Assembly (NCBI RefSeq): GCF_004310865.1 | Contig: NZ_SIXI01000001.1 | Location: forward strand, 682,001 to 746,000 | DNA length: 64,000 nt | Source: Aquabacterium lacunae | GTDB lineage: Bacteria > Pseudomonadota > Gammaproteobacteria > Burkholderiales > Burkholderiaceae_C | Reading direction: 5' to 3' | Part shown: positions 8,990 to 22,466 of the stretch, one piece after another | Layout of the letters: the number at the start of each line of letters is the position of its first letter | Numbering within the stretch: position 1 is the first letter of the stretch | The notes under the pieces: generated by a model | Seen by the model: only the letters and a program-made list of their open reading frames with translations | What the model was told of the DNA's origin: nothing | The model's database searches: none | Position numbers and translations under genes: made by a program

Positions 8990-10602
8990 GCAAGCTCCCT
9001 GACGTTTTCCGCCAAGGCCAGGCACAGCACCAGTGGAAGCTGTTCAATGGTGAACTGGGCCTGCCCGAGAAGATCACCTGTGACGTGGCCATCATCGGTT
9101 CGGGCGCAGGCGCCGGCATCACGGCCGAGCTGCTGACCAAGGCCGGCCTGGATGTGGTCATCCTGGAAGAAGGGCCGCTGCGCACCAGCACCGACTTCAA
9201 CCAGACCGAGACCCAGGCCTACAACGACCTGTACCAGGAAAGCGCCACCCGCGCGACGATGGACAACAGCATGTCCATCCTGCAGGGGCGCTGCGTGGGC
9301 GGCACCACGGTCATCAACTGGACCTCGTCGTTCCGCACCCCGGACGACACCCTGAAGTTCTGGCAAGACCAGTTTGGCCTGAAAGAACTCAACAAGGAGG
9401 CCATGGCCCCCTGGTTCGAAGGCGCCGAAAAGCGCCTGAACGTCGAACCTTGGGAGCCTGCCCCCAACCCCAACAACGAGCTGCTGCGCACAGGAGCCAG
9501 CAAGCTGGGCATCACGGCCAAGGTGATCCCGCGCAACGTGAAGGGCTGCTGGAACACCGGCTCGTGCGGCATGGGCTGCCCGACCAATGCCAAGCAGTCG
9601 ATGCTGATCACCACGATCCCCACGGCCCTGACCAACGGTGCCCGCCTGTACCACCAGACCCGCGCCGAAAAACTCGAGATCAGCAATGGCGAGGTGCAGG
9701 GTGTGGTCTGCTCGGGCATCCGCGTCAATGGCGACCGCGTGAGCGACAAGCAGATGCGCGTGGTGGCCAAGCACTATGTGGTGTCCGGCGGCGCCATCAA
9801 TTCGCCGGCCCTGCTCAAACGCTCGGACACCCCCGACCCGCACGGCATCCTGGGCACCCGCACCTTCCTGCACCCGGTGACCTTCTCGTCGGGCGTGTTC
9901 AGCGACAAGGTGGAAGGCTGGGCCGGTGCGCCGCAGACCATCTACTCGGACCACTACCTGCACACGCAGCCGGTCGATGGCCCCATGGGCTTCAAGATCG
10001 AAGCCACGCCCATGCACCCGGGCCTGACCTCGGTGCTGCTGGGCGGTGTGGGCGCTGACCTGGCCGAGCGCTTCAAGCACTACCCGAACACCCAGCTGCT
10101 GCTGTCGCTGCTGCGTGACGGCTTCCACCCGGACGCCGTGGGCGGCACCGTGATGCTGAACATCGACGGCTCGCCCCTGTTGAACTACCCGATCACGCCC
10201 TATGTGCTGGAGGGCGCCAAGCGCTCGCTGCTGGCCATGTCCGAGATCCAGTTCGCCGCCGGTGCGCAAAAGGTGCTGCCCTACCACGCGCAGGGCCGCT
10301 ACTTCAGCAACATGGCCGAAGCCAAGGCGGCCATCGACCAGTTCGCCATGGAGCCCTTCAAGACCGGTCTGGGCAGTGCCCACGTGATGGGGGGCTGCCG
10401 CATGGGTGGCACCGAAGCGCAAGGGGTGGTACGCGCCGACGGCACCCACTGGCAGGTCAAGAACCTGTCGGTGCACGACGGCTCGCTCTTCCCCACCTCG
10501 CTGGGCGCCAACCCGCAGCTGTCGATCTATGGTCTGACCAACCGCCTGGCCACTCAGCTGGCGCGCAAGCTCACCGGCAAGGATGTGTCGCTGGCCGCCT
10601 GA
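8986..10602 (+). CDS. GMC family FAD-dependent oxidoreductase
   Basis: A 538-residue glucose-methanol-choline oxidoreductase. The FAD-binding Rossmann motif is DVAIIGSGAGAG near residue 30, followed by GGTTVINW and a C-terminal substrate/flavin region (GGCRMGG, HVMG, SLGANPQLS). The cysteine-containing segment GSCGMGCPTNAKQS resembles that of long-chain alcohol oxidases. It has no signal peptide of its own. Coupling to the Tat protein suggests a membrane or periplasmic alcohol or sugar dehydrogenase. The substrate is unknown, but the neighbouring fatty-acyl-CoA ligase makes a fatty alcohol conceivable. Confidence 0.88.
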   Translation: MSKLPDVFRQGQAQHQWKLFNGELGLPEKITCDVAIIGSGAGAGITAELLTKAGLDVVILEEGPLRTSTDFNQTETQAYNDLYQESATRATMDNSMSILQGRCVGGTTVINWTSSFRTPDDTLKFWQDQFGLKELNKEAMAPWFEGAEKRLNVEPWEPAPNPNNELLRTGASKLGITAKVIPRNVKGCWNTGSCGMGCPTNAKQSMLITTIPTALTNGARLYHQTRAEKLEISNGEVQGVVCSGIRVNGDRVSDKQMRVVAKHYVVSGGAINSPALLKRSDTPDPHGILGTRTFLHPVTFSSGVFSDKVEGWAGAPQTIYSDHYLHTQPVDGPMGFKIEATPMHPGLTSVLLGGVGADLAERFKHYPNTQLLLSLLRDGFHPDAVGGTVMLNIDGSPLLNYPITPYVLEGAKRSLLAMSEIQFAAGAQKVLPYHAQGRYFSNMAEAKAAIDQFAMEPFKTGLGSAHVMGGCRMGGTEAQGVVRADGTHWQVKNLSVHDGSLFPTSLGANPQLSIYGLTNRLATQLARKLTGKDVSLAA

Positions 10603-11465
10603 GCCTGCCCCCCGACCGCTTGCACATTCACGGGCCCTTCGGGGCCCGTGGTCATGGTGGCGTCTCGGTGGGCCTGGCGCTGCCCGGCCCCCAGGCGGTA
10701 GCCCACCCAGCCGACACAGGCCGCCAGGGCCAGATGCCGCACCGCATGGCCGCTGATCCAGCCCTGGGTGGTCTCGTAGATCCAGACATCGGCCCAATCA
10801 ACTGTCTGTGCCACGGCAAAGCTGAACTGCGAACGCAGCCAGTCGGCCCGAGACAAGAGCAGATCCCCCTTGAGCGTCCAGGCGCCAGCGGCCACCAGCG
10901 CCAGGGGCGACAACTCCAGCCAGAATAATGGACGCAGATCGCCCGCACCCCACACATGCAGGCTGTAAAGCCACCAGATGCACCCCAGCAGGGAGGCCAT
11001 GACCCCGCACAGCACCGCCACCGGCGAGCCAAATCGGCGGTCGATGCGCTCGCCCAGGAAGGCCAGCGCGAACAGCGCGCAGGCGGCTGACTTGGGCACC
11101 TGGTCCCAGATGAAGGTGGCGTCGCTGGGGGCCCAGTGGTAGACCTGCCCGCCCACCGTGGCCAGCATCTGGCACACGAAAAAGGTACCCCACAGCAGTT
11201 TCAAGGGCTCATGCGCAGGCAGGCGGCTGACCCGCCACAAGCCCCACATGCCGATCGGCAGCAGCGGCATGTGGCTGAGCACCAACAAGGCCGCCGGAAT
11301 GCTCCAGCGGGTGTCAGAGCCCGCAAACTCGTGCATGTGGGGCACCAGATTGACCGGGCCCCAGGCCACCAGCAAGGCGGCGCCCGCCAGCGCCATGGCC
11401 AGCACCATGGCCATGGTGGAGCGACGCAGCAGGGTGTCGGGTGAATCTGGAGGGGTGCGCAGCAT
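10554..11465 (-). CDS. CREST/ceramidase-like integral membrane protein
   Basis: A 303-residue protein with about seven hydrophobic segments. The pattern GGQVYHWAPSDATFIWDQVP followed by a helix, and the late WISGHAVRHL, match the bacterial members of the alkaline ceramidase/CREST hydrolase superfamily, whose conserved Ser, His and Asp bind a metal. The start is uncertain: ATG 11465 is used here, ATG 11414 and TTG 11501 are alternatives, and none has a clear binding site. Its 3' end overlaps the convergent GMC gene by 49 bases. The substrate is unknown. Confidence 0.7.
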   Translation of the reverse strand: MLRTPPDSPDTLLRRSTMAMVLAMALAGAALLVAWGPVNLVPHMHEFAGSDTRWSIPAALLVLSHMPLLPIGMWGLWRVSRLPAHEPLKLLWGTFFVCQMLATVGGQVYHWAPSDATFIWDQVPKSAACALFALAFLGERIDRRFGSPVAVLCGVMASLLGCIWWLYSLHVWGAGDLRPLFWLELSPLALVAAGAWTLKGDLLLSRADWLRSQFSFAVAQTVDWADVWIYETTQGWISGHAVRHLALAACVGWVGYRLGAGQRQAHRDATMTTGPEGPVNVQAVGGQAQAASDTSLPVSLRAS

Positions 11466-11545
11466 GGGCCAGCAAAGGCAGCGGGTTCGAAAACCGTGCA
11501 ATGCTCCGCGAAAGCCCCCGCCTCGACAAGGCGAGGCACTTCAAG

Positions 11546-13459
11546 TTAGGGGGGTGTTTTGCCGGAGTTCAGCCAAGCCCGCCAGCCTCCCCACTCGGTG
11601 ACATCGGTGGCGCCCACCAGGGCCGAGGGCTCGCAGATGAAGCCTGGCACCTCGCGGCCGTCGGCCAGGCGGGTGCGGCCGATGCCCAGCGGTGCCGGGA
11701 TGCCGGCCACGAAGCTGCCGAAATGGGCCACCGGCATCTCCCACACCTCCACCTCGATGGCGGCACCGTCACCCTGCCCGGCGGCCATGCGCACCAGGGC
11801 GGGCCGGCGCACCGGCACAGGGCCCTTGGCCAGTTCGTAGAGGCGGTGGTCGGGGCTGGTGTGGGTGCAGGCCACACGCCGCGCGCCACGCTGCGTGAGC
11901 TGCCAGTTCAAGGGCTGCCCCTGAAGGTGGGCACCGCACACGGCCACCTGAACCATGCCGCTGGGCGCCAGCCCCGGCAGGCTGGCGCGCAAGGCCTCAA
12001 AACCCGTCGATGCGGGCAGCGGCTGCCCGGTGGCGCCCAGCGTGGCCGCTGCAGCACAGCGCTCAGCCAGCGCCCGCTGCCAGCGGGCGGCCAGGTGCAG
12101 CAAGGGCACGTCCTGGTGGGCCGGGCCCATCAAGGTGACACCAAAGGGCATGTCCACCCCTTGATCGAGCACGCGGCCAGAGGGCACGGCCACGCCCACC
12201 CAGTCCAGCAGGTTCAGGTGGTTGGTGTAGCGACCCAGGTGCGAATTCAGGCCGATGGGGTCGGCCAGCAAGGCCTGCAGCCGCGGGTGACAGGGCACCG
12301 TGGGCATCAGCAGCACATCGGCCTGTTGCCACAGCGCCTGGGCCTGGGTGCGCAACGCCTGCAACTGGTACTGCGCCGCGAAGGCATCGGCGGCGGAGGG
12401 AGCCTTGCCGCCGAGGGTGATCTCGCGGGTGACGGGGAAGACAGCCTCGGGCTGGGCCTCGATGAAGTCGCGGATGGCGAGGTAACGCTCGGCCACCCAC
12501 GGGCCTTCGTACAGCAGGCGCGCAGTGGCCAGCAGCGGCTCGATGTCGACTTCGACCACGGCCAGCCCCAGGGCACGCGCGTGGTCGATGGCCTGCTCGA
12601 AGGCGGCTTGCCAGGCCTGCACCGTGGCCGCATCGCCCAGGAACACCCGTTGCGCGGGCAGGGGCACGCCCACACGCGGCACCGCATTGCCCAGGGGTGG
12701 GCGGCCCACGTCAAAGCCATGGGGCTGAGCCGGGCGCGAATAGACATCGAGCGGGTCACGCGCCTGGGCCACGGCCAGCACGCGCAAGGCATCTTCGGCC
12801 GTGAAGGCGAAGATGCTCACCGCATCGAGCGAGCGACAGGCCGGCACCACGCCCTGGGTGCTGAGCAGGCCGCACGTGGGCTTGAGGCCCACCAGCTGGT
12901 TGAAGGCTGCCGGCACCCGGCCCGAGCCTGCGGTGTCGGTGCCCAGCGAAAAGCTCACCTGCCCCAGCGCCAGCGAGACGGCCGAGCCCGAACTGGAGCC
13001 CCCCGAGACGAAGGCCGGGTCCACCGCGTTGCGGCAGGCCCCGTAAGGCGAGCGGCTGCCATTGAGGCCCGTGGCGAACTGGTCGAGGTTGGTCTTGCCA
13101 ATCGGGATCGCACCGGCGTCGATCAGGCGCTGCACCACGGTGGCGCTCTGGGCCGGCACCTGCGCGAACTCGGGGCAGGCGGCTGTGGTGGGCAGGCCCG
13201 CCAGGTCGATGTTGTCCTTCACGGCAAAGGGCAACCCGTACAGCGGCTTGCCTTGCGGGCCCTGGGCCATCAGGGCCTCGGCCCGCTGAGTGAGCTGCTC
13301 CAAGGTGAACCGGCTGATCCAGGCGTGGTGCGGGTCGTCGCCGATGCGGCGCACCACCTCCTGCACCACCTGCACTGGTGTGATGTGGCCGGCCTGCAGG
13401 GCCTCACCCAGGGTCTGCATGTCGAAAGAGATCGCCTGCATGTTGCTTGTGTTGTCCAT
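11546..13459 (-). CDS. atzF: Allophanate hydrolase
   Basis: Hydrolyses allophanate to ammonia and carbon dioxide, the last step of the guanidine/urea carboxylation route. The 637-residue protein has an N-terminal amidase-signature domain: catalytic Lys in FAVKDNID, SGGSSSGSAVS, and GTDTAGSGRVPAAF with the nucleophilic serine. The C-terminal domain is the one specific to allophanate hydrolases. The ATG at 13459 has GGAG seven bases upstream, inside the end of the carboxylase gene, which stops five bases before. It is the last gene of the operon. Confidence 0.93.
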   Translation of the reverse strand: MDNTSNMQAISFDMQTLGEALQAGHITPVQVVQEVVRRIGDDPHHAWISRFTLEQLTQRAEALMAQGPQGKPLYGLPFAVKDNIDLAGLPTTAACPEFAQVPAQSATVVQRLIDAGAIPIGKTNLDQFATGLNGSRSPYGACRNAVDPAFVSGGSSSGSAVSLALGQVSFSLGTDTAGSGRVPAAFNQLVGLKPTCGLLSTQGVVPACRSLDAVSIFAFTAEDALRVLAVAQARDPLDVYSRPAQPHGFDVGRPPLGNAVPRVGVPLPAQRVFLGDAATVQAWQAAFEQAIDHARALGLAVVEVDIEPLLATARLLYEGPWVAERYLAIRDFIEAQPEAVFPVTREITLGGKAPSAADAFAAQYQLQALRTQAQALWQQADVLLMPTVPCHPRLQALLADPIGLNSHLGRYTNHLNLLDWVGVAVPSGRVLDQGVDMPFGVTLMGPAHQDVPLLHLAARWQRALAERCAAAATLGATGQPLPASTGFEALRASLPGLAPSGMVQVAVCGAHLQGQPLNWQLTQRGARRVACTHTSPDHRLYELAKGPVPVRRPALVRMAAGQGDGAAIEVEVWEMPVAHFGSFVAGIPAPLGIGRTRLADGREVPGFICEPSALVGATDVTEWGGWRAWLNSGKTPP

Positions 13460-13464
13460 GTTGC

Positions 13465-16400
13465 TCACTCCAGCACCACCACGTCTTGTCCGGCCTGCAC
13501 GGCCCCGCCTTCTTTCACCAGCACATTCCAGACCCGCCCGGCGCGCGGGGCCGTGATGGCGAACTCCATCTTCATCGACTCGACCACCACCAGCACCTGG
13601 TCGGCCTCGACCGCCTGGCCGGCCTGCACCTGCACCTGCCACACACTGCCCTGCACAGCCGAGACCACACCTTGGGCGCCCTCGGGCCGGTCGTCATCGA
13701 CCACAGGGGCCGCGGCAGTGTCTTCGCTGACGTATTCGGCCTGGCCCGCAGCGCGCCAGCGTTCTCGCTCGGCCTCGAAGGCGGCCTGCTGGCGTTGCTT
13801 GAAGGCGGCGATGCTGTCGGCCTCGCGCGCCAGGAAGGCGCGGTACTCGCGCAGGCTGAAGGTGGTGTGCTCGATGCGCAGCGAGCGCTGACCCAACGGG
13901 AACTCGGCGCGCCACTGCATCAGCTCGTCTTCACTGACGGGGTGGAACTGGAGCTGGTCGAAAAAGCGCAGCAGCCAGGGCTGGGTGAACTCGGGGCCGG
14001 CCTGCGGGCCATGGCGCCACCGGTTCCACATCTGCACGGTGCGGCCCACGAACTGGTAGCCGCCCGGGCCTTCCATGCCGTACACGCACAGGTAGGCGCC
14101 GCCGATGCCCACGGCGTTTTCCGGGGTCCAGGTGCGCGCCGGGTTGTACTTGGTGGTGACCAGGCGCTGGCGCGGGTCGAGCGGGGTGGCCACAGGGGCG
14201 CCCAGGTAGACGTCACCCAGGCCCATGACCAGGTAGCGGGTGTCGAAGAACAGGTCGTGCACGGCCTGTGCATCGGGCAGGTCGTTGATGCGGCGGATGA
14301 ACTCGATGTTGCTGGGGCACCAGGGGGCATCGGGCCGCACCGACTGCATGTATTTCTCGATGGCCAGGCGGGTCTGACTGTCGTTCCAGGCCAGGGGCAG
14401 GTGCACCACGCGGCTGGGCACGGTCATGTCGTCCACCGCGGGCAGCTGGGCCTCCGTGCGTTGCAGCACAGCCATCAGCATGGCGCGGGGCAGCACGGCC
14501 GGGTCGAAGTGCACCTGCAGCGAACGGATGCCCGGGGTCAGGTCGACGATGCCCGGCAGCTCGCCAGCATCGCGCTGGGCCTGCAGGGCCAGCATCAGCA
14601 CGTGCACCCGCAGGCGCAGTTCGATGTCCAGCACCAAGGGGCCGAACTCGACCAGCACGTAGCGGTCACCGGCCTGGCGGATCACCATGGCCGGCACGTC
14701 GTCGCGGGCCGGGTCGGACAGCAGGATGGGGCTGGGGCAGGCCTGGGGGGCGTCCACCGGCTTCAGTGGCAAGCTCGGCAGCTTCGCGGGTGCGGGCAAC
14801 ACAGCGGGCACCGAAGGCGCAGCCTGCAGGGCGGCCAGGGCCGCATCCACTGCGGCGCGGCGGGCCTGGGCGGCATCGGCGCTGATGCGGTGAAAGCGCA
14901 CCGTGTCTCCCGGGCGCAGCTGGCCCAGCTTCCACAGCTCGGCATCGACCACCACCGCGGGGCACACGAAGCCGCCCAGGCTGGGGCCGTCGGGGCCCAG
15001 GATCACGGGCATGTCGCCGGTGAAATCGATGGCGCCAATGGCGTACGCGTTGTCGTGGATGTTCGACGGGTGCAGCCCGGCTTCGCCACCGTCACGGCGG
15101 GCCCATTGCGGCTTGGGGCCGATCAGGCGCACCCCGGTGCGGCTGGAGTTGTAGTGCACCTGCCAGTCGGTCGCGAAGAAGGTGTCCACATCGTCCGGCA
15201 GGAAGAAATCGGGCGCGCCATGCGGGCCGTACAGCACCGCAATGTCCCAGTGGTGGGCAAAGGCAGGCACCAGGGCCGCCGGGGCCTGCTGGCCAGGTAC
15301 GCCTTCATGCGGAGCGGCCAGGTGCAGCATGTCGCCCACGCGCAAGGTGCGCCCGGCGTGGCCGCCGAACTGACCCAGCGTGAAGGTGCTGCGGCTGCCC
15401 AGGTACAGCGGTACGTCGAGGCCACCGCCCACGGCCAGGTAGGCGCGGCAGCCGGTGTCGGCCATGCGGCCGATGCGCAGCACGCCACCGGCCGGGATCA
15501 GGTGCGAGGCCCAGGGGGCCAGCGGCCGGCCATCGAGCGTGAGGTCCACCGGGGCGCCGGTCACGGCCACCACGGCCTCGTGGTGGAAGCGCAGGCTGGG
15601 CCCGCTCATCACGCATTCCAGGGTGGCGGCCTCTGGCGCATTGCCCACCAGGGCGTTGGCAGCGCGGTGGGCGTAGGCGTCCATGGGGCCCGAAGGGGGC
15701 ACACCCACGTCCCAGTGGCCCTGGCGGCCGGGCCAGTCCTGCACCGTGGTCTGCACGCCGCCTTCGAGCACCTCCAGGGCCTGCGCCTGATAGGCCAGGG
15801 TCGACAGGAAGCGCGTGATCTGCCGCCCTTGCTGGAACACCGGATCGGCCACGATGCGGCTCAGGTAGGCCAGGTTGGTCTCGATGCCAGCGATGCGGGT
15901 GTGGGCCAGGGCCTCGGCCATGCGCGCCAGGGCCTGCTCGCGGGTGTCGGCCGTCACGATCAGCTTGGCAATCATGGGGTCGTAGTAGGCGGGCACTTCG
16001 CTGCCGCGCTCCACCCAGGTGTCGATGCGCGGGCCTTGGGGCCACACCACTTCGGTCAGCACGCCGGTGCTGGGCTGGAAGTTGCGGGCCGGGTCTTCGG
16101 CGTACAGGCGCACCTGCATGGAGGCGCCACGCAGCACAGGCTGCAGCGTGTGCAGGGGTGGCAGGTCGCCCGCGGCCAGTTGCACCATCCAGGCCACCAG
16201 GTCCACACCGCTGACCTGCTCGGTCACCCCGTGCTCCACCTGCAGGCGGGTGTTGACCTCCAGGAAATAGAAATGGCCTACGGCCGCGTCGTACACGAAC
16301 TCGACCGTGCCTGCACTGCGGTAGTTCACGGCCTGAGCCAGGCGCACGGCCGTGGCCTGCAGGCTCTGGCGCTGGGCCTCGCTCAGGCCGGGGGCCGGGG

Positions 16401-17121
16401 TCTCTTCGATCACCTTCTGGTTGCGGCGCTGCACCGAGCAGTCGCGCTCGCCCAGGGCGATCACACCGCCCTGCCCGTCGCCGAACACCTGCACCTCGAT
16501 GTGACGGGCCTGCTCGACGAACTTCTCCAGGAACAGGCCGGCATCCTTGAAGTTGGCACTGGCCAGGCGCTGCACCGAGGCGAAGGCCTCGCGCAGTTCG
16601 GCATCGCTGCGCACCAGGCGCATGCCGATGCCGCCACCACCCGCCGTGCTCTTGAGCATCACCGGGTAGCCAATGCGGGCGGCCTCCTGCACCGCCACCT
16701 CGGCATCGGCCAGCAGGCCGCTGCCGGGCAGCAGGGGCACTTCGCAGCGCTCGGCCAGCTCGCGCGCCGTGTGCTTGAGGCCGAAGGCCTGCATGTGCGC
16801 AGGCGCCGGGCCGATGAAGGCAATGCCCGCGTCTTCGCAGGCCTGGGCAAAGCCGGCGTTTTCCGACAGGAAGCCGTAGCCGGGGTGGATGGCCTGGGCG
16901 CCGCAATCACGCGCCACCTGCAGGATCACGTCCTGGCGCAGGTAGCTCTCGCTGGCCAGCGCTTCGCCGATGCAGTAGGCCTCATCGGCTTCGCGCACAT
17001 GGCGTGAGGCGGCATCGGCCTTGGAATACACCGCCACGCTGCGCACGCCCAACTGCCGCAGCGTGCGGATGATGCGGCAGGCAATGGCCCCGCGGTTGGC
17101 AATCAGTACCTTGGTGAACAT
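13465..17121 (-). CDS. Biotin-dependent guanidine (urea-type) carboxylase
   Basis: A 1218-residue multidomain enzyme. Residues 1 to about 450 are biotin carboxylase (start [18 protein letters not shown] loop GGGGIGM). KipA-like and KipI-like carboxyltransferase halves follow, and the C-terminal biotinyl domain carries the biotin lysine in VESMKMEFA (Lys1184). By similarity alone it would be called urea carboxylase. The guanidine-I riboswitch upstream and the two DUF1989 genes fit the guanidine carboxylase branch, which makes carboxyguanidine with ATP and bicarbonate. The stop lies five bases before atzF, and the start lies three bases after the UAAP2 stop. Confidence 0.92.
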
Positions 17122-17124
17122 GGC

Positions 17125-17796
17125 TCAGTCCCAGATCAGGAATTCCACCGGCGTGGGGTTGTAGGCGTTGCAGGGGTTGTTGAGTTGCGGGCAGTTGGAC
17201 ACCAGCATCCACAGGTCCATCTCGGCGCGCAGCTCCACGTACTTGCCCGGGCCCGACACGCCATCGTCGAACTTCAGGCCGCCCTCGGGCGTGACCGGCA
17301 CGTTCATGAAGAAGTTGACGTTGGGCACCAGGTCGCGCTTGCTCAGGCCGGCATCCACCTGGGCCATGGCCAGCAGGTAGTTGTCACGGCACGAGTGCAT
17401 GAACTTCTTTTGCAGCGCGTAGCGCACCGTGTTGCTTTCAGAAGCGCACGCGCCGCCCAGGGTGTCGTGGCGACCGCAGGTGTCGGCCACGATGGTCAGC
17501 ATGGGTCGGCCCTCGTTGCTCATCAGCACCGAGCCCGTGCTCAGGTAAATGCCGCCTTGCGCCAGCATGGTGTCGGTGGCGCTGTAGTGCTCGCCCACTT
17601 CGTGGCGGTTGTAGAAGATGATGTCCACGGCCTGGTTGCCCTCCAGGTCGAGGATGCGCAGGGTCTGCCCCTGCTTGATCTCGGTCAGCCAGGGCTCGCC
17701 GGCGGGCTGGCGGTGGCGGGTGTGTGCCTGGGCCGGGTCCAGCGTGCTGGCGCGCAGGCCTGGGAATGGAAGCGATGCGTTGGTCGATGCGGTCAT
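17125..17796 (-). CDS. DUF1989 protein UAAP2 (carboxyguanidine deiminase subunit)
   Basis: A 223-residue DUF1989 protein of the 'urea carboxylase-associated 2' type. In guanidine users the paired DUF1989 proteins form carboxyguanidine deiminase (CgdAB), which converts carboxyguanidine to allophanate. Motifs seen include [34 protein letters not shown] and [14 protein letters not shown], typical of this metal-binding fold. The ATG at 17796 is preceded by GAGGAGCCCGCC. It sits between the UAAP1 gene (10-base gap) and the carboxylase gene (3-base gap). Confidence 0.88.
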
Positions 17797-17806
17797 GGCG
17801 GGCTCC

Positions 17807-18616
17807 TCAGCACAGGGCGAACACGTCGCTGTTGTGGTGCGCACGGGCGCATTCGGGGCGGAAGTGGCGGCAGTGGTCATCGGCCGGCGCGGGGCCACAG
17901 CGCCAGGCGGCCACGCCCACCTTGCCGGGGGCGTAGGTGGTGCGGGGGTCCAGCGGGTGCGGGGCCGTGCTCAGGGCCACGATCACGTCCATGTCCATGC
18001 GCAGTTCGACCACGCTGCCCTTGGGCGCATGCCCCGGGTGGAAGTGGAAGGCCCCGGCTTCGTCCACGCTCACCTTGCTGAACAGGTTCACCGGCGCGAT
18101 CAGGTCGCGCGGGCCCAGGCCGTGTTTGCCGATCTCGATCAGCAGGCCGTCCTTGCCGCTGCGGTACATGGCGTTGCGGTGCGCCTCGAAACGGCGCTCG
18201 CCATACTGGCGGTTCATGCGCGGCGTGTCGAGCAAGGCGCCCAGCGGGTCGTGCCAGCCCACGGTGTCGTGCGTGACCGAGGCCATGGCCCGGCCCATGT
18301 CGCTCATCAGCACATGGCCTCGGGTGTAGTGCGCCGTGTGCTGGGCCTTCAGGCTGTCGGGCATGTTGTAGCGCTCCAGCGGGTCGTGCGCGGCATACAG
18401 CACCACCGAGGCGTTGCAGGTGTCGTCCAGCGCCGCGAAGCGCAAGGCCATGCCGCGGCGCAGGCGCCAGCTCCAGTGGCCACCACCGGGCACCACCTCG
18501 CTGAACACCACCTGCCCGGCTGGCAGGTCAGGGGCAAAGCGTTGCCAGTGCGGGTGGGCATCAACAGGCTGGTGGGCCAGCGGGTTGTCAAGCAGGTGTT
18601 GGGCGTGTTCAGACAT
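17807..18616 (-). CDS. DUF1989 protein UAAP1 (carboxyguanidine deiminase subunit)
   Basis: A 269-residue DUF1989 protein of the 'urea carboxylase-associated 1' type, paralogous to the next gene. Shared features include [20 protein letters not shown], the [13 protein letters not shown] segment, the WHDPLGAL stretch and [13 protein letters not shown]. Together with UAAP2 it is expected to make the heteromeric carboxyguanidine deiminase. The ATG at 18616 has CTGGGAGACCTC directly upstream. A longer open frame runs up to 19288 but it overlaps the ABC ATPase gene and is not used. Confidence 0.88.
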
Positions 18617-18674
18617 GAGGTCTCCCAGCGGGCGGCCATGGCAGGCGCCCGCACACAGGTCACAGGGGTTCAAT

Positions 18675-18714
18675 GCAAATCGTGTTGCAGGTCGTGAAGC
18701 AGGTCGTGAAGCAG
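18675..18714. repeat. 12-bp tandem repeat in the guanidine operon
   Basis: Two exact copies of GCAGGTCGTGAA (18687-18710) are followed by GCAG and preceded by a degenerate copy (GCAAATCGTGTT). The array fills part of the 104-base gap between the ABC ATPase gene and UAAP1. It has no obvious function and may be a slippage product. Confidence 0.7.
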
Positions 18715-18720
18715 ACGGGG

Positions 18721-19551
18721 TCAGGCCTCGGCCGTGCGCGACAGCTGCTCCAGCAGATCGAGGTCGGTTTTCATGCCCGAGGTCTCCTTGATGCGGTCGA
18801 GAATCTGGCGCTTGAGCTGCAGGAACTCGGGCGCGTGCTTCATGTCCTGCGTGCGCTGCGCCGGCAGCGGCACCTCGTAGATGGTGTCGATGCGGCCAGG
18901 GCGCGGCGCCATCAGCACGATGCGCTGGCCGAGGTAGATGGCCTCTTCCACGTCGTGCGTCACGAACACGATGGTGGCCTTCTCCAGGCGGTGCACGTGC
19001 AGGATGAGGTCGTGCATCACCTCGCGGGTCTGCGCATCCAGTGCGCCGAAGGGCTCGTCCATCAGCAGGATCTCGGGGCGACTCATCAAGGCCCGCGCAA
19101 TGGCCACCCGCTGCTGCATGCCGCCCGACAGCTGGTTGGGCCAGGCATCGGCCACATGGCCCAGGCCCATCAGGCGCAGCAGTGCATCGGCCCGGCCAGC
19201 TGCCGCTTCCACATCGGCGCTGGTGCGCTCGTTCGTGTGCACCTTGAGCTGGCGGCAGAACTTGATGTTCTCGCGCACCGACATCCACGGGTACAGGCTG
19301 TAATGCTGGAACACCATGGCGCGCTCGGGGCCGGGGCCCTTCACCGGCAGGCCATCGACCTGCAACTCGCCACCGGTGTGGTGCTCCAGCCCCCCGATGG
19401 TGCGCAGCAAGGTCGATTTACCGCACCCCGAGGCGCCCACGAAGGTCACGAACTCGTTGGGCTGGATCTGCAGGCTCACGTTCTGCAGAGCGTCGTGCGC
19501 AGCGCCTTCGTAGCGCTTGAACAGCTGGCGCACATCGATCTTGGGCGTCAT
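18721..19551 (-). CDS. ABC transporter ATP-binding protein (guanidine importer)
   Basis: A 276-residue ATPase of the nitrate/sulfonate/taurine importer family. Walker A is [12 protein letters not shown], the signature is [15 protein letters not shown], Walker B is [12 protein letters not shown], and the H-loop is VTHDVEEA. Its start lies one base after the permease stop. The riboswitch upstream of the operon suggests that guanidine, rather than taurine or urea, is the solute. Confidence 0.92.
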
Positions 19552-19552
19552 G

Positions 19553-20383
19553 TCAGCCTTTCAGGTAAAGCCACGGAAAAGCCTTGCGATGCGCCCAGCG
19601 GAACAGCTGGTCGATCACCAAGCCGATCAAGCCGATCAGGATGATCCCGGCGAAGATCTTGTCGGTCTGCAGGAAGCGCTGGGCTTTCAGGATGGCGTAG
19701 CCCAGGCCCGAGTTGGCAGCCACCAGTTCGGCCACCACCAGGTAGGTCCAGGCCCAGCCCATGGTCACGCGCAACGTGTCCATCAGGGCCGGTGCCGCCG
19801 AGGGGAACACCACCTTTTCGACCAGCTCGGTGCGCGTGGCGCCCATGGTCTGCGCGGCCTCGATCTGCGCCATGGGCACGCGGCGCACGTCTTCGGCCAC
19901 CATCAGCACCATCTGGAAGAAGGTGCCGATGAAGATGATGGCCACCTTCGACGATTCGTCGATGCCCACCCACAGCATCACCAGCGGGATGAAGGCCACC
20001 GCCGGCATGTAACGGATGAAATCGGTCAGCGGCTCCAGCAGGGCCTGCACCACGCGGAAGGTGCCGATCATCAGGCCCAGCGGCAAGGCGATCGCCGCCG
20101 ACAGCAGGAAGCCCCCCACCACGCGCCACACGCTGATCAGGATGTCGCCGGCCAGGTCGGCCTCGCGCCACCAATCGACGGCGCGCTGCCAGACCTGCCC
20201 AGGCGAAGGCAGGAACACGGCGTCGGCACCGGCCACCGCCGTGGCCAGCCACCAGCCCAGCAGCGGCAACACCAGCCCGATCAGGGCCAGCAGCGCATAG
20301 GCTTTTGAAGGGATGCTGCCACGCACCACCCACCAGCGTGGGCCGGTGGTGGCGACAGGCGTGGGGCTCGGTGCGATCGCCAT
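19553..20383 (-). CDS. ABC transporter permease (guanidine importer)
   Basis: A 276-residue inner-membrane permease of the TauC/SsuC/NrtB type with about six hydrophobic segments. The cytoplasmic coupling motif reads EAAQTMGATRTELVEKVVFPSAAP. It lies between the solute-binding and ATPase genes with gaps of 7 and 1 bases, so the three form one transcription unit. Confidence 0.91.
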   Translation of the reverse strand: MAIAPSPTPVATTGPRWWVVRGSIPSKAYALLALIGLVLPLLGWWLATAVAGADAVFLPSPGQVWQRAVDWWREADLAGDILISVWRVVGGFLLSAAIALPLGLMIGTFRVVQALLEPLTDFIRYMPAVAFIPLVMLWVGIDESSKVAIIFIGTFFQMVLMVAEDVRRVPMAQIEAAQTMGATRTELVEKVVFPSAAPALMDTLRVTMGWAWTYLVVAELVAANSGLGYAILKAQRFLQTDKIFAGIILIGLIGLVIDQLFRWAHRKAFPWLYLKG

Positions 20384-20390
20384 GCCGAGC

Positions 20391-21395
20391 TCACTTCTTC
20401 AGCGCGTCGGCCAGGAGTGTCGTGTCGATGGCCTTGCTGACATCGGGCGTGCCTTCGATCAGCTTGTTCTCGCTCAGGAACTTCACCACCGTGGGCGCCA
20501 CACCCAGCAGCGACAGGGGCTGCGTGGACGGGCCCATGGCCTCCTGGTTCAGCTTGGCGTCAAAGAAGCGGGTGCCCGGCAGGAACACCTTGTATTCATC
20601 GGGCTTGAGGCTGACCACCTTGGCCATGATGGCCGCCGCCTCGTCGGGCTTGGCCTGGATGAAGGCCACCGTGTCGAACCAGGCCTTGACCATGCCGACC
20701 AGGTCCTTGCGCTTGGCCTTGATGGCCTTGTCCTGCGCCACCAGCAGATCGGGGATCAGGCCCGGCAGGTCCTTCGAGGTGAACAGGGCCTTGCCCTTGC
20801 CGCTGCTTTCGATCTGGTGGATCCAGGGGTTCCAAACCACGGCAGCATCGACACGGCCGCTCATGAAGGCGGCAGCGGCATCACCGGCAGCCAGGTTCAC
20901 CAGCTTGATGTCGCTCACTTTCATGCCGTTTTTGGCCAGGGCATTGACGAGCACAAAGTGCGACACGCTGTACTGCTCCAGCGCCACCGACTTGCCCTTG
21001 AGGTCCTTGAAGGATTTGATCTTGGGGTTGACCACCAGCGCATCGTTGCCGGCCGAGTTGTCGTTGACCAGCACCACCTTCAGCGGCAGGCCCTTGGCCA
21101 GCGGGCCCATGGTGTCGGACCAGGTCTGCGAATTGGCGTCGAGCTGCCCCGCCGACAGGGCCGAGATGGAGTCGGTGTAGTTGGCAAACCAGACCAGCTT
21201 GACGTCGGCACCGTGCTTCTTGAAGAAGCCTTTTTGCTCGGCCACATACCAGGCCACCCAGCCCGGCCAGTCGGAGACCCCGACCTTGACCTCGGCGCGC
21301 GCGGGCGTTGCCACAAGGGCCGATGCGGCGACGACACCGGCCAGGATGCTGGACACCACGCCAGCCGACACACGTTCAAAGAATGATTGGGGCAT
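20391..21395 (-). CDS. ABC transporter substrate-binding protein (guanidine importer)
   Basis: A 334-residue periplasmic binding protein of the NMT1/TauA-like family. It has a Sec signal peptide with likely cleavage after TPARA, then VGVSDWPGWVAWYVAEQKG and a hinge segment containing DANSQTWSDTM. The ATG at 21395 has CTGGAG upstream, and the longer open frame is rejected because it would run through the riboswitch. It is the first gene of the operon and directly follows the riboswitch expression platform. Confidence 0.9.
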   Translation of the reverse strand: MPQSFFERVSAGVVSSILAGVVAASALVATPARAEVKVGVSDWPGWVAWYVAEQKGFFKKHGADVKLVWFANYTDSISALSAGQLDANSQTWSDTMGPLAKGLPLKVVLVNDNSAGNDALVVNPKIKSFKDLKGKSVALEQYSVSHFVLVNALAKNGMKVSDIKLVNLAAGDAAAAFMSGRVDAAVVWNPWIHQIESSGKGKALFTSKDLPGLIPDLLVAQDKAIKAKRKDLVGMVKAWFDTVAFIQAKPDEAAAIMAKVVSLKPDEYKVFLPGTRFFDAKLNQEAMGPSTQPLSLLGVAPTVVKFLSENKLIEGTPDVSKAIDTTLLADALKK

Positions 21396-21420
21396 CTCGA
21401 AGACTCCAGACAGTAGGACC

Positions 21421-21460
21421 AAAAGCTGGGAGGCCACCTCGTCGCGAAGTGATCTCCCGG
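21421..21460 (-). terminator. Putative riboswitch-controlled terminator
   Basis: On the minus strand GGGAG at 21458-21454 can pair with CTCCC at 21432-21428, with TCAC/GTGG extending the stem, followed by AGCTTTT. The GGGAG is also the conserved 3' edge of the riboswitch aptamer. The two structures exclude each other, as expected of a guanidine-on switch. The T-run is short, so translational control is an alternative. Confidence 0.5.
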
Positions 21461-21580
21461 GCTTTTGTCCCGCCGTGGAGCCTGAGTGCCGTCGAGGGCC
21501 CTTGAGGCCGGTTGCTCTCGGACCAGACACACCGCGCGTGGCGACCACTGCACGGCATCGGAACCCTAGCGACCCTTTCG
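21452..21580 (-). promoter_or_regulatory. Guanidine-I (ykkC) riboswitch
   Basis: Reading the minus strand, the three conserved blocks occur in order: GCTAGGGTTCCG (21570-21559), CTGGTCCGAGAG (21526-21515) and a third block at 21476-21453 that contains ACGGCGGGACAAAAGCCC and ends GGGAGA. These are the hallmark segments of the ykkC subtype that binds guanidinium. It lies about 60 bases upstream of the binding-protein gene and should turn on the operon when guanidine is present. Confidence 0.93.
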
Positions 21581-21620
21581 TGAATGCAGCGACTGTGGCT
21601 GCCTCCCTTGCCTGTGATTT

Positions 21621-21636
21621 AGCAAGCAACGTGCCA
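21621..21636 (-). promoter_or_regulatory. Sigma-54 promoter of guanidine operon
   Basis: The minus strand reads TGGCACGTTGCTTGCT, a full match to the -24/-12 consensus with GG and GC separated by ten bases. It ends about 40 bases before the riboswitch, so the transcript would start just upstream of the aptamer. Confidence 0.82.
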
Positions 21637-21699
21637 GGGAGGCACCCCCTGCACAGCGGGCCCGGCGCCGCCCTGCGGCGCGGCTCTGGGACAAACCCA

Positions 21700-21752
21700 G
21701 CGCACCAGACATGTGCACAGGGATCACTTCAGCACCCAACCGGCACCAGACA
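21700..21752. promoter_or_regulatory. NtrC-like enhancer sites of guanidine operon
   Basis: A GCACC-N5-TGTGC half-palindrome lies at 21702-21716, one mismatch from the NtrC pattern GCACC-N5-GGTGC. A second GCACCAGACA is at 21743-21752. They sit about 75-120 bases upstream of the sigma-54 promoter, a normal distance for an enhancer-binding protein. Confidence 0.5.
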
Positions 21753-21769
21753 GGGCATGCACAGGCAAC

Positions 21770-21797
21770 AAAAAACCCCGCCGAGGCGGGGTTTTTT
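21770..21797 (-). terminator. Rho-independent terminator after ompA
   Basis: The stem AAAAACCCCGCC / GGCGGGGTTTTTT has a two-base GA loop and T-runs on both strands. It lies 22 bases beyond the ompA stop codon and separates ompA from the guanidine operon. Confidence 0.9.
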
Positions 21798-21818
21798 CAT
21801 TCAGGCCGAAGCCGGAAA

Positions 21819-22466
21819 TCACTTGGCGCGGGTGCCGACCACTTCGATTTCAACGCGGCGGTTCTTGGCGCGGCCTTCTTCCGACTTGTTGTCGGCCACA
21901 GGTTGGGCTTCGCCCTTGCCTTCGGTGTACACGCGGGTGGCGTCGATGCCCTTGCCAGTCAGGTAGGCCTTGACAGCGTCAGCGCGCTTGACCGACAGCT
22001 TCTGGTTGTAAGCGTCGGTGCCCTTCGAGTCGGTGTGACCGGTGGCGATGATGACTTCCAGATTCAGGCCCTTGACCTTGTCCGACAGGTCGTCCAGCTT
22101 GGCCTTGCCTTCGGGCTTCAGCACAGCCTTGTCGAAGTCGAAGAAGGCGTCAGCGGCGAAGCTCACCTTTTCCACGGCCGGAGCAGCGGGGGCGGCAGGA
22201 GCGGGAGCCGGGGCGGGGGCTGCAGCCGGGGCAGGAGCCGGAGCGGGTGCGGGCGCAGCCTTGGGAGCAGGAGCGGGAACGCCGTCGCAACCTTGCACGC
22301 CGGTGGCCGGGGTCCAGAACTGATCACGCCAGCACAGTTCGTTGGTGCCGTTCTTCCAGACGGTGCCGTCGGTGGCGCGCCAGTTGTCGATGGCTTGGGC
22401 CTGAGCGGCACCAGCCGACAGGGCAGCAACGGCGAACAGAGCGGCGACGCGGTTCAGTTTCTTCAT
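21819..22466 (-). CDS. OmpA family outer-membrane protein
   Basis: A 215-residue protein with a Sec signal peptide (cleavage near AAQA) and a short N-terminal domain with two cysteines. A Pro/Ala linker of about 40 residues follows, then a C-terminal OmpA domain that binds peptidoglycan (FFDFDKAVLKPEG, ATGHTDSKGTDAYN, NRRVEIEVVG). It anchors the outer membrane to the cell wall. The ATG at 22466 is followed by a typical signal sequence; the upstream frame extension is not used. It is divergent from gyrA, as in related Burkholderiales. Confidence 0.93.
   Translation of the reverse strand: MKKLNRVAALFAVAALSAGAAQAQAIDNWRATDGTVWKNGTNELCWRDQFWTPATGVQGCDGVPAPAPKAAPAPAPAPAPAAAPAPAPAPAAPAAPAVEKVSFAADAFFDFDKAVLKPEGKAKLDDLSDKVKGLNLEVIIATGHTDSKGTDAYNQKLSVKRADAVKAYLTGKGIDATRVYTEGKGEAQPVADNKSEEGRAKNRRVEIEVVGTRAK

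Follow-up and report, generated by a model that had tools for sequence, protein, structure and literature searches.

A guanidine-I riboswitch operon of Aquabacterium lacunae with a predicted sigma54 promoter before the riboswitch

Organization of the operon

The window analyzed here is a stretch of 64,000 nucleotides from Aquabacterium lacunae (contig NZ_SIXI01000001.1, positions 682,001 to 746,000), and its minus strand carries, from 21580 to 11546, an operon in which a guanidine-I riboswitch is followed by seven codirectional genes with intergenic gaps of at most 104 bases (Table 1). Pfam and NCBIfam identified these genes, in order, as the binding protein, permease, and ATPase of an ATP-binding cassette (ABC) importer, two DUF1989 proteins, a biotin-dependent carboxylase, and an allophanate hydrolase; the start codons are our own choice. 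A first-pass annotation had proposed that such a riboswitch heads an operon of exactly these genes, and both the riboswitch, a 79-bit match to RF00442, and all of the gene assignments were borne out. The interval it gave, 13459-21395, is bounded by the start codons of the hydrolase and the binding protein; although it had named both, the hydrolase itself (13459-11546) and the riboswitch (21580-21452) lie outside it. The pathway it envisaged, from guanidine through carboxyguanidine and allophanate to ammonia and CO2, would be complete in this one tight array. Judging from sequence, we regard the identity of the locus as a guanidine operon as close to certain, and we hold with high confidence that the operon as a whole serves the assimilation of guanidine nitrogen and responds to two inputs. 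It is a new example of a kind already described, which databases still label as urea metabolism; what we add is a predicted sigma54/NtrC promoter directly before the riboswitch.

Table 1. Features of the operon and its upstream region, in order of transcription (window positions)
Feature	Position	Strand	Evidence
NtrC-like dyad TGCACA-N5-GGTGCG, predicted	21701..21717	-	10/12; 64 bases upstream of sigma54 match
sigma54 -24/-12 promoter match TGGCACGTTGCTTGCT, predicted	21621..21636	-	12/12; 40 bases before aptamer model start
Guanidine-I riboswitch aptamer	21452..21580	-	Rfam RF00442, model 1-107 of 107
Terminator-like hairpin AAAAGC..GGGAG / CUCCC.GCUUUU, probable off-state	21421..21466	-	Fold
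Periplasmic binding protein, SsuA/NMT1 type, putative guanidine binder	20391..21395	-	Pfam/NCBIfam; substrate from context
ABC permease	19553..20383	-	PF00528 (BPD permease)
ABC ATPase	18721..19551	-	PF00005
UAAP1, DUF1989, one subunit of putative carboxyguanidine deiminase	17807..18616	-	TIGR03425 over cut-off
UAAP2, DUF1989, Cys/His-rich subunit of putative carboxyguanidine deiminase	17125..17796	-	TIGR03424 over cut-off
Guanidine carboxylase (BC, CT-AB, CT-CD, biotinyl domains)	13465..17121	-	Pfam, NCBIfam, alignment, tree
Asp699 codon, guanidine/urea discriminating position	15025..15027	-	Computed from start at 17121
Allophanate hydrolase with AH_C domain	11546..13459	-	Pfam/NCBIfam

The riboswitch exceeds the gathering score of 63 bits (E = 2.1e-12) and is the sole guanidine-I match at E 0.001 in the 3.9-Mb genome, where guanidine-II and guanidine-III riboswitches were absent at the same threshold. 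The last aptamer bases (AAAAGC..GGGAG) can pair with bases downstream to form the predicted terminator-like hairpin, which fits an ON-switch and lends it modest support. Guanidine-I riboswitches allow transcription only with guanidine, according to passages of PMC11410670, and destabilization of an intrinsic terminator is presumed for that of Vreelandella boliviensis in PMC12508155.

Several described systems resemble the operon. In V. boliviensis (PMC12508155, in part), a guanidine-I riboswitch likewise stands at the head of genes for an ABC importer, cgdA/B, gca, and atzF, but an internal guanidine-II riboswitch and mgdH/mgdL lie between gca and atzF, where the window has a 5-base gap between carboxylase and hydrolase and no guanidine-II riboswitch. 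The guanidine carboxylase operons of Raoultella, Klebsiella, and Erwinia are alike in genes and chemistry, yet, as excerpts of PMC12186494 describe them, guanidine-I controls the importer and deiminase there and guanidine-II the carboxylase and hydrolase, whereas the window has one guanidine-I riboswitch for seven genes. Ammonia oxidizers share the guanidine-I riboswitch and the guanidine carboxylase pathway but have an APC permease in place of the ABC importer (PMC11410670, in part).

An open reading frame for a hydrophobic protein of 315 amino acids (10554-11501, minus strand) starts 44 bases 3′ of the hydrolase gene and could be cotranscribed; a Pfam search with it gave no match.

Substrate of the carboxylase and its partner enzymes

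The first-pass annotation proposed that the carboxylase probably acts on guanidine and not on urea, and suggested a comparison of active-site residues with characterized enzymes. Asp699 of the window enzyme aligns with Asn1330 of a true urea carboxylase, the Kluyveromyces lactis urea amidolyase (KlUA; PDB 5i8i, 3va7), to which it could be aligned over residues 2-1216; the chain in 5i8i is longer and has the carboxylase as its C-terminal part. An Asp at this position, 701 in TIGR02712, separates guanidine from urea carboxylases according to passages of PMC11410670, and the identical Asp/Asn rule is given in part of a review (PMC12186494). By this rule, the window enzyme, with Asp and not Asn at position 1330, would be a guanidine carboxylase.

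Relatives were drawn from two sources: a scan of named genomes, in which 80 carboxylase loci were kept from 596 matches and 48 (L040-L087) were used in the context tables, and 300 genomes of the order, in which 45 loci exceeded the TIGR02712 cut-off and for which wider stretches were fetched. L088-L119, whose listed matches are mostly the biotin carboxylase part alone, were left out of the context tables, and L132 and L133 were dropped as duplicates of L056 and L046. Context was counted for 92 carboxylase frames of at least 700 amino acids, window included, with riboswitches called by covariance model R1. Asp was found in 81 frames and Asn in 11. In the fetched DNA, a guanidine-I riboswitch lay upstream on the same strand of 62/81 Asp-type but 1/11 Asn-type frames (Fisher p = 2.4e-5, uncorrected for relatedness), and DUF1989 genes lay upstream of 77/81 and 1/11, respectively. 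Ten of the 11 Asn-type enzymes share an HDC motif, and nearly all Asp-type enzymes have HDN; the fetched DNA of the ten HDC/Asn-type loci contained no riboswitch and no DUF1989 genes, and their hydrolase gene is upstream rather than downstream.

A tree of 86 rows (85 carboxylases from the 92 frames plus the yeast enzyme), built by a quick method without bootstrap and rooted at the midpoint, gave a concordant picture. A branch with 100% support in the Shimodaira-Hasegawa-like approximate likelihood ratio test sets ten Asn-type enzymes, together with that of yeast, apart from the Asp part of the tree, where the window enzyme clusters with Asp-type enzymes of Hydrogenophaga and other Burkholderiales (support 99). 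The clustering with true urea carboxylases that would have spoken against the earlier proposal was thus not seen. The best match in named genomes, from which near-identical records may be left out, was a Hydrogenophaga metagenome-assembled genome (MAG), at 73% identity. Frames shorter than 1000 amino acids were left out of the tree, including the entry standing for both frames of L121 (G063:C9:81674-100282), a locus from an ammonia-oxidizer-group genome. One L121 frame, of 796 amino acids, covers only model positions 432-1200, with motif HDVPYSIGAVDFTGDLPV; it has no biotin carboxylase domain and, with a riboswitch and DUF1989 pair of its own, lies divergent from a complete guanidine carboxylase.

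Beside the carboxylase gene stand two different DUF1989 subunits, the arrangement of the carboxyguanidine deiminase CgdAB. Residues C117, C136, C202, C209, H110, and H134 of UAAP2 are invariant in 77/77 sequences, window included, and no Cys appears among the columns listed as conserved in UAAP1 (75 sequences); UAAP2 is therefore probably the metal or catalytic subunit, as far as conservation can tell. The allophanate hydrolase scores 748.3 bits with TIGR02713 (cut-off 511.05), and its residues K81, S155, S156, and S179 are invariant in 72/72 sequences, window included, a pattern in keeping with the amidase triad.

Predicted sigma54 promoter and its candidate activator

Very probably, on the evidence of its place and conservation, the site at 21636-21621 is a sigma54 promoter. 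All sigma54 scores are matches to one -24/-12 consensus string, and the NtrC scores are matches to an NtrC consensus string with its dyad spacing. We scored 105 different guanidine-I riboswitches, collected from the carboxylase loci and, among 369 genomes of the class, from the 29 that carry one, after 4 duplicate aptamers had been dropped. Matches were counted if they reached at least 10/12, kept both GG and GC, and lay no more than 200 bases upstream. Such a match precedes 81 of the 105 riboswitches, 72 of the 81 at 29-78 bases, with a median distance of 43 bases; the window site thus has both the -24/-12 elements and the conserved placement. In the controls, matches were found on 2/105 reverse strands, in 13/2100 mononucleotide shuffles, and in 23/537 other intergenic stretches, each no longer than 300 bases, at least 5 of the 23 preceding urea-carboxylase operons by position. 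At the genus level, 55/64 groups had a match. Of the 24 riboswitches below 10/12, the ammonia-oxidizer group accounts for 11 and Cohnella and the cyanobacteria for 2 each; 6 of the remaining 9 reach 9/12. Exporters of the small multidrug resistance (SMR) family were not among the first genes listed after the relatives' riboswitches; because a negative control from SMR-exporter riboswitches was thus not available, reverse strands, shuffles, random stretches, and intergenic regions were used. The window genome has one SMR gene, away from the riboswitch.

The sigma54 site also occurs before operons that have no guanidine-I riboswitch. In the 760-base stretch before the first gene, matches of at least 10/12 were found for 11/15 riboswitch-less Asp-type operons (each with more than 64 bases upstream, two with fewer than 760; the upstream DNA was too short at another four Asp-type loci) and for 8/10 HDC/Asn-type urea operons. 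It seems that sigma54 marks the nitrogen-assimilation role and the riboswitch marks guanidine. An Rfam search of six riboswitch-less loci gave no other guanidine riboswitch at the gathering score.

Upstream of the operon, an OmpA-family gene (22520-21819) ends before a terminator-like site at 21787-21775, so a promoter of the operon's own is plausible, although about one such terminator-like match is found in shuffles too.

NtrC is the likely activator of the predicted promoter. NtrC-like dyads of at least 10/12 within 250 bases upstream were found in 26/72 operons, compared to 51/2160 random stretches and 20/2160 shuffles. The window genome encodes RpoN, one NtrC over the TIGR01818 cut-off, and two further NtrC-like regulators below it, and NtrC exceeded this cut-off in 51/52 genomes outside the ammonia-oxidizer genus, window genome included. 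In contrast, all six searched genomes of that genus have RpoN and none has NtrC over the cut-off, and none of the 11 ammonia-oxidizer-group riboswitches has a sigma54 match of at least 10/12. These 11 come from four named Nitrosomonas loci and the six genomes. Five of the genomes belong to the tree's Nitrosomonas clade; the other one, G063, is absent from the tree and was placed by genus code. An APC permease gene lies downstream of 8 of the 11, and a riboswitch-driven APC permease in ammonia oxidizers has already been published (PMC11410670, in part). The contrast is suggestive of a link to NtrC but not proof, because the counts follow lineage.

Among the other riboswitches, that of L144 (10394-10277, minus strand; sigma54 match 11/12) precedes a 295-amino-acid Gcw_chp protein, which, if porin-like, could be an outer-membrane entry for guanidine. 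The L201 riboswitch (2099-2000, minus strand; 10/12) precedes a fatty-acid-desaturase-family protein (PF00487). Those of L195, L196, L199, and L187, with sigma54-like sites of 9-12 of 12, precede similar proteins resembling guanidinase-type ureohydrolases; the L195 protein, the only one of these run against Pfam, belongs to the arginase family.

A two-input model and its alternatives

We propose that the operon is a two-key switch, turned on only when guanidine coincides with nitrogen starvation; its promoter half is a prediction. Under nitrogen starvation, active NtrC and RNA polymerase-sigma54 would fire the promoter at 21636-21621 to give a transcript that begins with the guanidine-I aptamer. 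If switching follows the class, the 3′ end of the aptamer would pair downstream into the terminator-like hairpin when guanidine is absent, and would stay with the aptamer, letting transcription continue, when it is present. The ABC importer would then take up guanidine. By analogy with characterized homologs, the Asp-type carboxylase would convert guanidine, ATP, and bicarbonate to carboxyguanidine, the two DUF1989 subunits would deiminate this to allophanate, and the allophanate hydrolase would release two ammonia and CO2.

Parts of this arrangement are already in print under other names. COG3665 is, we assume, DUF1989. A sigma54 regulon study lists 102 sigma54-regulated COG3665 genes, of which 59% were identified as 'urea carboxylase', and its main text does not contain the string 'guanidin' (PMC12316311). 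RNA-seq of a Burkholderia ntrC mutant found 'urea carboxylase' and related transporter genes to be NtrC-dependent (PMC5491218, in part). Control of 'urea carboxylase' genes by sigma54/NtrC has thus been published, and the passages seen of these papers do not draw the link to guanidine. Among the matches listed in a literature search, subscription papers excluded, titles and abstract openings did not link guanidine riboswitches or ykkC to sigma54, NtrC, or RpoN. The novelty of a two-key reading is not established.

Some results weigh against the two-key explanation or its parts. In the window alone, a sigma54 match with at most one mismatch is at chance level (1.51 expected), so the case for the promoter rests on its place and conservation; the NtrC match, too, is weak taken singly, and riboswitches L173, L186, and L194 score below 9/12 for sigma54 though their genomes have NtrC over the cut-off. 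Compared with shuffles, the hairpin falls short of significance (z = -1.29), and in a survey of the relatives 30 of the 103 testable riboswitches among the 105 passed our test for such a hairpin, compared to 40/1030 shuffles. In the fetched DNA, 19/81 Asp-type loci are without a guanidine-I riboswitch; absences of riboswitches or genes are not firm because some contigs end early. The sole exception to the Asp/Asn rule among the 92 frames is L064 (Hyphomicrobium sp. D1_Bin_42, carboxylase at 10001-13597), with Asn in a complete operon of riboswitch, importer, DUF1989 genes, and hydrolase. Its enzyme groups with an Asp-type Hyphomicrobium enzyme in the tree; either the published rule fails here or the MAG contains an assembly error.

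The automatic names point to a urea carboxylase/urea amidolyase operon. The full-length carboxylase scores 1872.9 bits with TIGR02712 'urea carboxylase' (cut-off 1303.85), and the DUF1989 proteins exceed the cut-offs of TIGR03425 'urea amidolyase associated protein UAAP1' (327.1 bits) and TIGR03424 'urea amidolyase associated protein UAAP2' (339 bits). The TIGR02712 name does not discriminate between substrates, because Asp-type and Asn-type enzymes both exceed its cut-off. Asp699, the tree position, the guanidine riboswitch, and the DUF1989 pair, which no HDC/Asn-type locus of the ten showed, all argue against urea as substrate, as does a urease alpha gene elsewhere in the genome, which would make a second urea route redundant. 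We rejected a true urea carboxylase, which we consider extremely improbable, on diagnostic residue, tree, and context. Hardly more probable is a substituted guanidine as the physiological substrate, with guanidine only the inducer or an intermediate. Methylguanidine-demethylating genes do occur in such operons of halophiles, but the V. boliviensis guanidine-I riboswitch discriminates against methylguanidine (both from passages of PMC12508155), and the seven genes, with their short gaps, include no extra dioxygenase or lyase genes (the rest of the genome was not searched).

A third alternative concerns the promoter: an enhancer-binding protein other than NtrC could drive it, or a sigma70 promoter that escaped recognition could lie beside it. 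We judge this unlikely, though far less so than either alternative substrate. The many operons without an NtrC-like dyad of at least 10/12, the two further NtrC-like regulators of the window genome, and the three site-less riboswitches in NtrC-bearing genomes fit another activator; the distribution of NtrC inside and outside the ammonia-oxidizer genus, whose riboswitches lack the site, and the NtrC-dependent genes of the Burkholderia speak for NtrC. A crude scan of 21300-21900 found no sigma70-like site, although chance alone would give no more than 0.1. On balance, we think it likely that guanidine operons of Beta- and Gammaproteobacteria, along with two from alphaproteobacteria, run from an NtrC-sigma54 promoter into a guanidine-I riboswitch, and that the ammonia oxidizers of the Nitrosomonas group, in which no NtrC exceeds the cut-off, have the riboswitch without a sigma54 match.

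The operon is mislabeled by current NCBIfam models, as had been suspected. The expected urea carboxylase label is indeed given; the taurine or nitrate transport label is not, as those models match the binding protein below cut-off, and this NMT1-type protein (Pfam) is instead named by TIGR01728 'aliphatic sulfonate' (204.4 bits, cut-off 163.5). The permease and ATPase have only Pfam matches, with no NCBIfam model over cut-off. Guanidine use is easily overlooked in genomes because NCBIfam names such operons urea carboxylase, urea amidolyase-associated, and sulfonate transport. A sigma54/NtrC promoter, if true, would explain why such genes appear as 'urea carboxylase' in NtrC and sigma54 regulons. 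The operon would then be an AND-gate with a DNA-level input for nitrogen status and an RNA-level input for the substrate, and, to judge from the contrast with the ammonia oxidizers, the type of promoter may reveal whether guanidine serves a given bacterium as a nitrogen source when it is starved.

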